A stretch of 13,699 nt of DNA from Candidatus Desantisiibacteriota bacterium (lineage in GTDB: Bacteria > JACRDZ01), in contig JACQWU010000193.1 in the NCBI GenBank assembly GCA_016209155.1, positions 1 through 13,699 of the forward strand. Reading direction: 5' to 3'. Numbering within the stretch: the first letter of the stretch is position 1; each line of letters opens with the position of its first letter. The notes beneath the pieces were generated by a model, which did no database searches, was not told the origin of the DNA, and saw only the letters and a program-made list of their open reading frames with translations. Of this stretch, positions 6,984-10,837 are shown in pieces. Both the position numbers and the translations under genes were made by a program.

Positions 6984-7838
6984 TTATAAGCTATTTTTGC
7001 TTTTTATTCTATTTTTTTCACGGGTTTTAATTATTTTTGCTCTAATTTCCGGATCATGGATAAATCCCAGCATCATTTTCCGCTGTTCAGGGTTCTTCCA
7101 TCTTTTTTTAGCAGCTTTGCTTAATTTAGCTTTATATTCAGGATCCATTTTTATCTTCATTAATCTATCTCTCTCTTGAGGATTATGCCACATTTCTTTA
7201 ATTGTTTTTACCAGTTTTTTCCTATTTTTAAGGGAGTTTAATTTTTTTAGCATTTTCCCTCTGTATTCCGGATCTTTCCATCTTTTTAATGATTTCTTTC
7301 TAATAACTGCTCTAACCTCAGGATCTCTCAAATGCATAATTCTTTTAGCTTTAAATTCAGGGTTTTCATTCATTTTTATAAAATTTTTTATTCTTCTTTC
7401 TCTATCTTTACTTTTTCCCCAGCTTTCTTTAATTGATTCAGTCATCATTTTTCTATATTTAGGATTCTTCCATCTTTTCTTAGCTTTCTCACTAAGGATC
7501 GCTAACATTTTAGGATTTTTCATATTTTCCCGAAGAACTTTTTCTATTTTTGCACGAGATTTGGGATCATTCCATCTTTTTTTAATGATTTTGCTAAATC
7601 GCTCTGAAAGTTGTTTTCGAAACACCGGATTTTTCAATTTTTGTCGAAGCCTGTAAGTAGTATTATAAAGAAGTAAAGGCGAGACTAATGCAGCATCTTT
7701 ATATATTTTTCTATATTCCCGCATTTCCATAGTATGTTCTTTATATAAATGCGATGCAGTGATTCTTTGATACCAATTATGACATATTGCACATTGAATT
7801 TTATCATCTAATATTTTATTATTAATTTTTCTTTTCAT
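6984..7838 (-). CDS. zinc-finger protein with a long array of NUMOD3-like basic repeats, probable DNA-binding protein
   Basis: A 284-residue, strongly basic protein. The N-terminus has a C2H2 finger, C16-x2-C19-x10-H30-x4-H35, followed by EYRKIYKDA, similar to Ros/MucR-type fingers with one extra residue in the loop. From about residue 66 to the end runs an array of short helical repeats of the form KKRWKNPEYRKKM. The Pro positions (71, 92, 109, 126, 160, 173, 190, 220, 233, 250, 263, with degenerate units at 143 and 203) are spaced 17 or 13 residues apart. Such repeats resemble NUMOD3-type DNA-binding modules of homing endonucleases, but no GIY-YIG or HNH catalytic motif is present. Start ATG 7838-7836 has AAAGGG 7 nt upstream and its own promoter. 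Function is inferred as sequence-specific DNA binding; a stand-alone relic of a homing enzyme is also possible. Confidence 0.7.
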   Translation of the reverse strand: MKRKINNKILDDKIQCAICHNWYQRITASHLYKEHTMEMREYRKIYKDAALVSPLLLYNTTYRLRQKLKNPVFRKQLSERFSKIIKKRWNDPKSRAKIEKVLRENMKNPKMLAILSEKAKKRWKNPKYRKMMTESIKESWGKSKDRERRIKNFIKMNENPEFKAKRIMHLRDPEVRAVIRKKSLKRWKDPEYRGKMLKKLNSLKNRKKLVKTIKEMWHNPQERDRLMKIKMDPEYKAKLSKAAKKRWKNPEQRKMMLGFIHDPEIRAKIIKTREKNRIKSKNSL

Positions 7839-7851
7839 ATTATAGCCCTTT

Positions 7852-7882
7852 ATATATAGGTAAGCAATTATTACCTTTATAT
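7852..7882. promoter_or_regulatory. 31-nt interrupted palindrome in the leader of the repeat-protein gene
   Basis: Arms ATATAtAGGTAA and TTACCTtTATAT pair at 11 of 12 positions around the 7-nt centre GCAATTA. On the minus strand it begins close to the expected start of transcription of the repeat-protein gene (about 7879) and ends 14 nt before its ATG. It could be an operator or an mRNA hairpin. Confidence 0.45.
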
Positions 7883-7885
7883 TAA

Positions 7886-7915
7886 ATTATAAGTTATTTT
7901 AGCTTTCAGCGTCAA
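7886..7915 (-). promoter_or_regulatory. promoter of the zinc-finger/repeat-protein gene
   Basis: On the minus strand, TTGACG (7915-7910) and a perfect TATAAT (7891-7886) are separated by 18 bp. The -35 box is the left half of an inverted repeat, GTCAAA-N5-TTTGAC (7911-7927), shared with the divergent glnE promoter. Confidence 0.65.
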
Positions 7916-7973: not shown

Positions 7974-9296
7974 ATGGAGATGGATCATGATGAATATAAA
8001 CTTCTTTTTGCGCCAATACTTGCAAAAGAAGAAATAGCATCCATTCTTAGCCCTTATGGATTTAAAGATATACCCAAAGCTGATAATAATATACAGCTTA
8101 TAGCCGGGGATCCATTACAAAGAAAAGTTTTTGCGATTTTCTTTATCCATTTATTGAAAATCCTTGGGGAATCTCCTGATCCTGATATGGCTCTTAATAA
8201 TATGGAAAAATATATCAGGAATGTAGCAAGCCCTGTTTCCTTATTTTCTTTTTTTGCAAATAATTTAAAACCTCTGGAAATATTAATCTTGATATTGTCA
8301 CATAGCCAGTTTTTTTCAGATATAATATGCATAAATACAACCTATTTTGACTGGCTTTTTGAATCAAAAAATATAGGAATTGCTAAAACATCCGCAGACT
8401 TTTCATATGATATTAATGAAATGCTTAAATCCGTTAAAAGTTTTGAAAAAAAAACCAATATACTCCGTATTTTTAAACGCCGGGAAATACTCAGAATAGG
8501 TGTAAACGATTTAATTGATGCTCTTTCGCAGGAAGCAGTCATGCGGCAAATTTCTCTCCTTGCTGAAACTCTGCTCGAAGCAGCATATCAAATATCGAAA
8601 GAAGAACTCCAGCTAACATATGGAATACCAAAAACACCTCATAAAGAGGAGGCTGATTTCTGCATAATAAGCATGGGAAAATTGGGCGGAGAGGAGTTAA
8701 ATTACAGTTCAGACATTGATATTATTTTTATTTATTCTGATGATGGAGAGGTAGAAAATACAGATAAGAAATCTCAAAATATAATTTCTAATCTTGATTT
8801 TTTCACAAAACTTGCAGAGATGATTATCCGTCATATTTCAAACATTACAGATGAAGGTTATTGTTTCAGGGTTGATACACGCCTTAGGCCTGACGGCAAA
8901 TCAGGACAACTGGTGCGCAGTCTTGAAAGTATGGAAAAATATTATTACAGTCATGGAGAAACATGGGAACGGCAGGCACTTATTAAAGCCAGAGTTGCAG
9001 CAGGAGACAGGAAACTCGGAAAAACTTTTCTTAAAAAAATTGATGGTTTTATATACAGAAAATATCTTGATTACCAGGCAATTCAGGAAATAAAAATGCT
9101 TAAAAATAGAATCGAACAGGAAGTTGATAAAAAAGAACTTTTTGAGCGTGAAGTAAAATTGGGATATGGCGGAATTCGCGATATTGAATTCACCGTTCAG
9201 TTTCTTCAGCTTTTACATGGCGGAGAAAATGAAATTTTAAAAAATACAAATACATTAACGACCTTAAAAAATCTTTTCATCGGAATAAACCTATAG
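7974..9296 (+). CDS. glnE: glutamine synthetase adenylyltransferase/deadenylylase, N-terminal (deadenylylase) part, truncated
   Basis: GlnE adds and removes AMP on glutamine synthetase in response to PII and glutamine; the N-terminal half carries the deadenylylation activity. Here it has RIFKRREILRIGVNDLI (165-181), GKLGGEELNYSSDIDIIF (235-252) with the metal-binding pair D247/D249, RVDTRLRPDGKSG (299-311) and GYGGIRDIEFTVQFLQ (397-412). It stops after TLTTLKNLFIGINL, where the helical segment AYxFLRxxEHRLQ...MGY should follow. The reading frame downstream, one base back (-1), picks up again with RNKPIDTK and EEFRKDYKMHTENIRQ, so about 45-50 residues appear lost together with the frame. Start and ribosome binding site are sound. 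As it stands the enzyme is broken or misassembled. Confidence 0.88.
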   Translation: MEMDHDEYKLLFAPILAKEEIASILSPYGFKDIPKADNNIQLIAGDPLQRKVFAIFFIHLLKILGESPDPDMALNNMEKYIRNVASPVSLFSFFANNLKPLEILILILSHSQFFSDIICINTTYFDWLFESKNIGIAKTSADFSYDINEMLKSVKSFEKKTNILRIFKRREILRIGVNDLIDALSQEAVMRQISLLAETLLEAAYQISKEELQLTYGIPKTPHKEEADFCIISMGKLGGEELNYSSDIDIIFIYSDDGEVENTDKKSQNIISNLDFFTKLAEMIIRHISNITDEGYCFRVDTRLRPDGKSGQLVRSLESMEKYYYSHGETWERQALIKARVAAGDRKLGKTFLKKIDGFIYRKYLDYQAIQEIKMLKNRIEQEVDKKELFEREVKLGYGGIRDIEFTVQFLQLLHGGENEILKNTNTLTTLKNLFIGINL

Positions 9297-9349: not shown

Positions 9350-10837
9350 ATGCATACAGAAAACATACGGCAGGTTTTTATGCATCTGTTCCAGGGGCTA
9401 TTTCAGTATAATATAGAGCAGGCTGAGGAAACCGATTTGATATTAAATCCTAATCCGGACGGGACTTTGATATTAAATATTCTTTCCCGCTATAATTTCT
9501 ATGATATAAAAAAAGCATATAAAAACCTTAAACTTTTAAGTGAGCGTGATATTTTTACCCCTTATACTTTCCGTACAAAAAAATATTTAGCTAATATTTT
9601 GCCTATACTTTTAAAAGGATGTTATTCCTCATCCCGCCCTGACCGGGCATTAAATAACTTTGAATATTTTACAGGGAAATTAGGCGCTAAAACTATATTT
9701 TATGAAAGTTTGAAATCAAGTCCCAATATGATCTCAATACTGACTAATATTTTTGGCACAAGCATTTATCTTAGCGATATTTTAATGCAAAATCCTGAAT
9801 TCCGTGATCTTATAGTTAAAATACTCGGGACTATTCTTACCGGAATAAATTTTTTTATGCATAAAAATATGCAAAGGACAATGAAAGCCCTTACACAGCT
9901 TGCTTTATTTATTCTGGAAAATATATTTTATACAAACTGGGAAAATTCACAATTAAAAGGGAAGATCTCTTTATGTATTTTAAGTCTCGGGAAATTGGGC
10001 AGAAAAGAACTTAATTTTGACTCTGACCTGGATATTATATTTTGTTATGAAATACATCAAGACCATATTAATTCTAATGAATCTATGGAAATTCATTATA
10101 TGGTTTGCGAGTGGATAAAAAAATTTTTACAGGATATGCAGAAAATATATAAAGTTGATTTGCGATTACGCCCCATGGGAAACTCCGGAGAATTGGCAAT
10201 CCCATTATCTCGGTTTCTGGAATACTTTCAAAAACAGGCACGCACATGGGAAAAAATAGCTTTTCTTAAAGCAAGTTTTGGCGGTGGAGATAAAAAAACA
10301 GCAGAAAAATTAATAACAGGTATTCGAAAAATAATATTTGCGTCACTATCAAACGAAAAACTCTTATATGATATTATTGAAATTAAAAATTTGATAGAAA
10401 AAAATACTAAAGATAGTGCCAATGATTTCAAACATGGAATCGGCGGACTTATGGAAATTGAGTTTATAATAGATTATATAGTATTAAAAAGTGGTATGGA
10501 AAAATATTTTCTGTCCGGTACAGGGACTACCAACTCATTAAAAATTTTAAAAGAATTAAAAATAAAAAAACTTATTACTTCCAAAGACTATAATATTCTA
10601 AAAAATGCATATATATTCCTTATGCATATTGAAATGACACTCCGGCTAAATATGACAGGTGAAAAAACATATATTCTTTCAAATGATCCTGAATGGATTA
10701 CTTTAGCGGCCAGACAGATGGGATATAATACTGTGGAACAATTTATATCACAATACAAAAAAAATTCCGCTTGCGTAAGAGATATATTTGATAAATTAAA
10801 TATTCAGGTTGATAGACTGAAGGCTGAAGACTTTTAG
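9350..10837 (+). CDS. glnE: glutamine synthetase adenylyltransferase, C-terminal (adenylyltransferase) part of a broken gene
   Basis: The nucleotidyltransferase half that adenylylates glutamine synthetase: GKLGRKELNFDSDLDIIF (214-231) with D226/D228, KVDLRLRPMGNSGEL (268-282), TWEKIAFLKASFGGGD (299-314), GIGGLMEIEFIIDYI (363-377) and the closing helical bundle AYIFLMHIEMTLRLN...ARQMGY (420-459). ATG 9350 has no convincing Shine-Dalgarno, and the frame is open upstream to 9233, overlapping the first part by 64 nt, so this is probably a continuation, not a separate gene. The spacing from LSDI (141-144) to GKLG is about 47 residues shorter than in the N-terminal half, and the basic 'KRREILRIG' motif is absent, suggesting a second, in-frame deletion. 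The last residues, RLKAEDF, are encoded by the dispersed hairpin repeat. Confidence 0.85.
   Translation: MHTENIRQVFMHLFQGLFQYNIEQAEETDLILNPNPDGTLILNILSRYNFYDIKKAYKNLKLLSERDIFTPYTFRTKKYLANILPILLKGCYSSSRPDRALNNFEYFTGKLGAKTIFYESLKSSPNMISILTNIFGTSIYLSDILMQNPEFRDLIVKILGTILTGINFFMHKNMQRTMKALTQLALFILENIFYTNWENSQLKGKISLCILSLGKLGRKELNFDSDLDIIFCYEIHQDHINSNESMEIHYMVCEWIKKFLQDMQKIYKVDLRLRPMGNSGELAIPLSRFLEYFQKQARTWEKIAFLKASFGGGDKKTAEKLITGIRKIIFASLSNEKLLYDIIEIKNLIEKNTKDSANDFKHGIGGLMEIEFIIDYIVLKSGMEKYFLSGTGTTNSLKILKELKIKKLITSKDYNILKNAYIFLMHIEMTLRLNMTGEKTYILSNDPEWITLAARQMGYNTVEQFISQYKKNSACVRDIFDKLNIQVDRLKAEDF

Follow-up and report, generated by a model that had tools for sequence, protein, structure and literature searches.

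The window analysed here is a stretch of 13,699 nucleotides, positions 1-13,699 of contig JACQWU010000193.1 (assembly GCA_016209155.1, Candidatus Desantisiibacteriota bacterium). On its minus strand an open reading frame (6984..7838) encodes a protein of 284 amino acids (pI 10.6) with a Ros-type C2H2 finger followed by a helical array. Its coordinates and translation, as given in an initial annotation, proved correct on re-checking, as did the absence of a nuclease domain: domain searches that included Pfam found no catalytic domain, whether HNH, GIY-YIG, LAGLIDADG, PD-(D/E)XK or another. The gene sits between glnE and a zinc-ribbon gene and does not lie within another gene. The next ORF downstream encodes the zinc-ribbon protein and no nuclease remnant was seen beside the gene. 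In a synteny and empty-site comparison, neither neighbour found a match in three genomes of the same phylum, and no close orthologue of the array protein was present in those genomes. The gene is single copy in its own genome, where its product holds the sole array and the sole Ros/MucR-like finger found. Searches for orthologues returned none in plasmids and, save for one intein, none among 60 and then 386 sampled genomes; the array itself was present in 2 of the 386, its own genome counted among them.

Elsewhere in the window, GlnE-like adenylyltransferase/deadenylylase halves occupy two plus-strand ORFs (7974-9296 and 9350-10837). This arrangement may be a true split or a frameshift, and a portion of the second ORF can be aligned with the first at 34% identity. 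At 3-1565 on the minus strand, a PilZ-like N-terminus appears by eye to be fused to an AONS/KBL-type aminotransferase.

The finger spans residues 16-35 (7734..7793, minus strand) with the ligands C16-X2-C19-X10-H30-X4-H35. It had been described as Ros/MucR-like. The CX2CX10HX4H ligand set is indeed present, but the Pfam model ROS_MUCR (PF05443) scored 18.6 bits against a curated cut-off of 25.4. Used alone as a query, the finger found no matches in phages.

Of sigma-70-like promoters directed into the gene, the best candidate is TTGACG-18-TATAAT (7886..7915, minus strand), identified by consensus match only, at 11 of 12 positions. Directly downstream of its -10 box lies an imperfect palindrome, TATATAGGTAA-N7-TTACCTTTATA (7853..7881, assigned to neither strand), which we regard as a candidate operator. 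Its full form is unique in the genome. The core is not enriched, with 11 matches genome-wide versus 34 for the reversed control, and thus no regulon is visible and the palindrome was rejected as a regulon site. A 5' RNA hairpin at this position was likewise discarded, being no better than shuffles. By analogy with I-TevI, for which autorepression is the precedent (PMC2988022, PMC3943268), the palindrome would be reasonably placed to serve as the site of an autorepressor.

Repeat anatomy and predicted structure

Repeat analysis, AlphaFold2 and a unit profile together delimit an array of 14 single-helix units at residues 53-284 (6987..7682, minus strand), and the protein terminates with the last helix. 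Each unit opens with N/D-P-x-aromatic-R and continues as a basic helix. Anchors fall at residues 54, 71, 92, 109, 126, 143, 160, 173, 190, 203, 220, 233, 250 and 263, with proline at every one of these positions except 143 (KSKDR) and 203 (SLKNR), and the resulting spacings are 17, 21, 17, 17, 17, 17, 13, 17, 13, 17, 13, 17 and 13. The series 21, 17, 17, 17, 17, 13, 17, 13, 17, 13, 17, 13 reported in the initial annotation is exact once the two proline-less units are counted, which is fair because AlphaFold2 helices start at 146 and 203; one additional unit, at P54, precedes that series. A unit profile trained on other proteins only recovered 10 units in the protein versus approximately 1.4 expected. 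Tryptophan, said to be usual in the units, is found at position -3 in 6 of the 14, with leucine in a further 4, and the description is thus partly right.

A 30-residue super-repeat had been proposed for the later part of the array. Identity autocorrelation, scored against 2000 shuffles, bears this out with its highest peak at lag 30 (z 4.8), followed by lag 17 (z 3.0) and lag 13 (z 2.6). The alternating 13- and 17-residue units occupy residues 159 to 276 (7011..7364, minus strand). At identical residues of aligned units the codons are the same in 173 cases versus 195.5 predicted from codon usage, and third positions 30 codons apart show near chance similarity; synonymous sites among the units are saturated. 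Nearly all anchors are nevertheless intact. Since the anchor residues persist while synonymous sites are saturated, the protein sequence appears to have been under constraint: as judged from these comparisons, the units are of ancient origin, and selection has preserved their amino acids over at least a large part of that time.

The AlphaFold2 model, built from a 7-sequence alignment, has a mean pLDDT of 79 and a pTM of 0.34. Helix starts coincide exactly with 13 of the 14 anchors; at anchor 143 the helix begins at residue 146. Because predicted helix starts and anchors coincide, one unit is predicted to correspond to one helix, and the array to a chain of short helices. The plain coiled coil raised as an alternative in the initial annotation is not what the model gives, its short helices being separate. 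The helix packing and overall fold are not reliable at this pTM. In a Foldseek search of viral models an SP-15 endonuclease ranked first, followed by endonuclease I, Holliday junction resolvase and phage proteins annotated as ROS/MUCR. No match at E≤0.001 was obtained against the PDB.

Relatives of the array in endonucleases

Searches with tblastn and profiles placed the array mostly in endonucleases, and nearly every relative whose domains are known is an endonuclease of a mobile element. The catalytic domains are unrelated to one another, being of the HNH, GIY-YIG and PD-(D/E)XK types, and the enzymes are free-standing, intron-encoded or contained in inteins. Scans of viral contigs added few new loci and mostly returned the query phages themselves.

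In Bacillus phage SP-15, three proteins (SP15_103, SP15_023 and SP15_033) combine a Ros C2H2 finger, an array and a nuclease of PD-(D/E)XK type, the assignment for SP15_103 coming from annotation and PHROG membership. SP15_033 is located within the major capsid gene of the phage, itself in two parts. A Phage_endo_I/TnsA-like nuclease is supported by Pfam in SP15_033, whilst SP15_023 and LIS04 fall below the cut-off; LIS04_52, of the endonuclease I type, adjoins terminase and intein pieces. All three SP-15 proteins match phrog_22215 strongly. The window protein also matches this family (E 6.5e-18), with the match confined to positions 80-195 of the 324 in the profile, without the nuclease end.

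Array endonucleases of HNH type include I-LimI in uvsW and proteins of GMA2 and phiA8-29, with Pfam supporting the HNH assignment for GMA2 and scoring below its cut-off for phiA8-29. Those of GIY-YIG type are found in FLC6 and RHph_X2_25; Pfam supports both, the latter through LEM-3_GIY-YIG. Arrays also occur in inteins of GyrA (genome G287), GyrB (G410) and the SP-15 terminase. In the two gyrase inteins (loci L016 and L076, respectively) an HNH-like motif is followed by a helix array of the type seen in the window protein. The SP-15 example, SP15_022 (316-1935 of locus L069, plus strand), is annotated as hypothetical and comprises part of a terminase with an intein bearing an HNH-like motif and array units.

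The initial annotation had likened the units to NUMOD3. A 17-residue capped-helix period and an equivalent position in endonucleases are shared, but the units fail the Pfam test: NUMOD3 (PF07460) did not match the window protein at E≤1 or anything in its genome at E≤0.1. The 17-residue capped-helix period as the DNA-recognition part of an endonuclease is a trait of the repeat class; the window protein has no nuclease of its own. Profile-profile comparison by hhalign aligned the array units with NUMOD3 in the same register, weakly (E 6e-4, probability 30%). The Aeromonas phage phiA8-29 encodes two HNH proteins that agree at 98 of 112 residues as far as the start of the array. One then runs on in W-x-D/N-E-x-Y/F-R units, its counterpart in NUMOD3 units of the canonical kind. 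In the latter protein a single D-P-E unit also stands exactly 17 residues ahead of a T-E-E unit, and the unit profile matches the ORF of this protein weakly (E 0.003). Since the same HNH domain carries either type, array and NUMOD3 behave as interchangeable modules. The two are equivalent in use and probably related.

Unit spacing across the repeat class

The initial annotation had pointed out that all spacings equal 4n+1. This is real in the window protein and not peculiar to it. Using leave-one-out unit profiles, in which spacing was not an input, we found that 63 of 67 single steps across 13 array proteins are 1 modulo 4 (13, 17 or 21), so that the rule is a property of the class; p-values for this count overstate independence, as units within one array share ancestry. 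Of the 27 steps other than 17 residues, 23 are 13 or 21, and all seven double steps are 2 modulo 4. Most simply, the helices would grow or shrink in steps of about one turn. We found no description of the rule in the open literature, although one may exist.

Alternation also recurs, between 13 and 17 residues in one nuclease-free protein encoded by genome G646 and largely between 17 and 21 residues in phage locus L014. The phage protein (2692-3798, plus strand) has at least 14 near-identical units; its start is GIY-YIG-like by eye only, without Pfam confirmation, and Pfam reads GBP_repeat and GerD.

Nuclease-free arrays in other bacteria

Two further genomes encode tandem pairs of array proteins in which Pfam detected no nuclease. 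The pair in Vampirovibrionales (locus L002; 4662-5912 and 6007-7056, plus strand) shares a C-terminal flank identical at 97 of 107 residues (91%), with arrays of 198 and 90 residues. The pair in G646, from the same phylum as the window (loci L075 and L078, contig C14, approximately 39.3-41 kb), has an N-terminal flank identical at 156 of 167 residues, and the first 60 array residues are identical at 22. On the strength of these tandem paralogues, nuclease-free arrays recur and, as far as their sequences indicate, the array is the changing part. A sigma-70 region-4-like reading of the Vampirovibrionales C-terminus, made by eye, was not confirmed, with no Pfam hit and an AlphaFold2 pLDDT of 54.

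Discussion

On balance we favour, without great confidence, the view that the window protein is a nuclease-free DNA-binding protein made up of that half of a Ros-finger homing endonuclease which recognises DNA. Units of 13, 17 or 21 residues would each form one short helix starting at the D/N-P-x-aromatic-R cap, with unit length varying by four residues, approximately one helical turn. The row of basic helices and the N-terminal zinc finger would then lie along a long DNA site in the manner of NUMOD3 helices; in I-TevI the helix of this type occupies the DNA minor groove. The protein is inferred to bind such a site, to act by occupancy and to play a regulatory role; by analogy, it is perhaps an autorepressor. 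The initial annotation had similarly envisaged a modular array and finger reading an extended DNA site. Support for this is partial and comes from the type of array, a recognition module of homing endonucleases that follows the same HNH domain as NUMOD3 does and is also found after Ros-type fingers.

The main rival, possible but rather doubtful, is that the gene is a decaying homing-endonuclease gene whose nuclease was lost by deletion, leaving the finger and array as an idle remnant. The nearest architecture, that of SP-15, has a C-terminal domain of PD-(D/E)XK type precisely where the window protein stops, and the gene is a single-copy orphan within the phylum sample. The initial annotation had itself named a nuclease in longer homologues as evidence of truncation, and for the family such nucleases do exist, in SP-15 and LIS04. 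However, the ORF following the gene encodes a zinc-ribbon protein and not the remains of a nuclease, and array proteins lacking a nuclease occur in other bacteria. Furthermore, the 284-codon frame has stayed open in AT-rich DNA with nearly all anchors intact at saturated synonymous divergence, and the Ros-finger endonucleases have arrays of fewer units. That the protein is instead one half of a split homing endonuclease, with a nuclease encoded elsewhere and acting in trans, would suit a DNA-binding half standing alone and an array that is modular relative to nuclease type. We consider this highly improbable: the neighbouring genes are not nucleases, and Phage_endo_I found no match in the protein's own genome, although that genome is 79% complete and the search found no match in the controls either.

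It is also improbable that the basic helical repeats serve some purpose other than reading DNA, the protein being RNA-binding, a scaffold or a DP-helix protein resembling GerD or STI1. The Pfam GerD model (PF17898) does score 32.9 bits, above its cut-off of 29.5, and STI1-HOP_DP falls just short of its own. Yet the GerD model also matches the arrays of several endonucleases, suggesting that it detects the look of a DP helix, and the NCBIfam GerD equivalog lies far below its cut-off, at 25.7 of 100. GerD was thus rejected as an identity and regarded as a look-alike. Moreover, the N-terminus is a zinc finger region with no visible lipoprotein signal. As PF17898 exceeds its cut-off on D-P helix arrays, spore germination annotations of such proteins may be wrong.

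Homing endonucleases recombine nuclease and DNA-recognition parts, the latter being poorly understood. A search of the PDB with a unit profile (A6) turned up no solved endonuclease structure of the D/N-P, Trp-type repeat, whilst the NUMOD3 profile found I-TevI (1i3j, E 0.036). We regard the class-wide whole-turn spacing as the most interesting part of the result. A strict rule that holds over several catalytic types defines a structural unit open to testing. Nuclease-free proteins whose flanks stay constant while their arrays change would reveal how recognition parts become host DNA-binding proteins, and also whether arrays follow a simple recognition rule. In its boldest form, which we think unlikely, the array would be a single-helix DNA-reading repeat quantised in whole turns (13, 17 and 21 residues), common to mobile endonucleases of multiple types and reused by bacteria in nuclease-free, array-variable proteins, with a readable relation of unit to base.

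Among known systems, the Ros/MucR regulators (PF05443) have a finger related in sequence to that of the window protein, with the latter's score sub-threshold, and Ros/MucR proteins are not known to carry an array of this type. NUMOD3/IENR2 repeats (PF07460; I-TevI) resemble the array in their 17-residue period and in having one capped short basic helix per unit, and sit behind the same HNH domain in phiA8-29. They differ in having Ser/Thr caps and Gly-rich linkers, where the array has D/N-P caps, Trp, almost no Gly and the tight 4n+1 spacing. I-LimI, GMA2 gp110, FLC6 gp69 and phiA8-29 orf_016 and orf_058 share the repeat type and spacing of the window protein, but carry HNH or GIY-YIG domains and no Ros finger. 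The Vampirovibrionales and G646 proteins are, like the window protein, arrays without a recognisable nuclease, one of those of G646 also alternating 13 and 17 residues; unlike it, they have other N- and C-terminal domains, lack the C2H2 finger and occur as tandem paralogues. The closest architecture is that of the SP-15 trio of phrog_22215, in which an N-terminal Ros-type finger is likewise followed by D/N-P-x-aromatic-R units, mostly of 13, 17 or 21 residues. The SP-15 proteins end in a nuclease, whereas in the window protein the array comprises more units and forms the C-terminal end.
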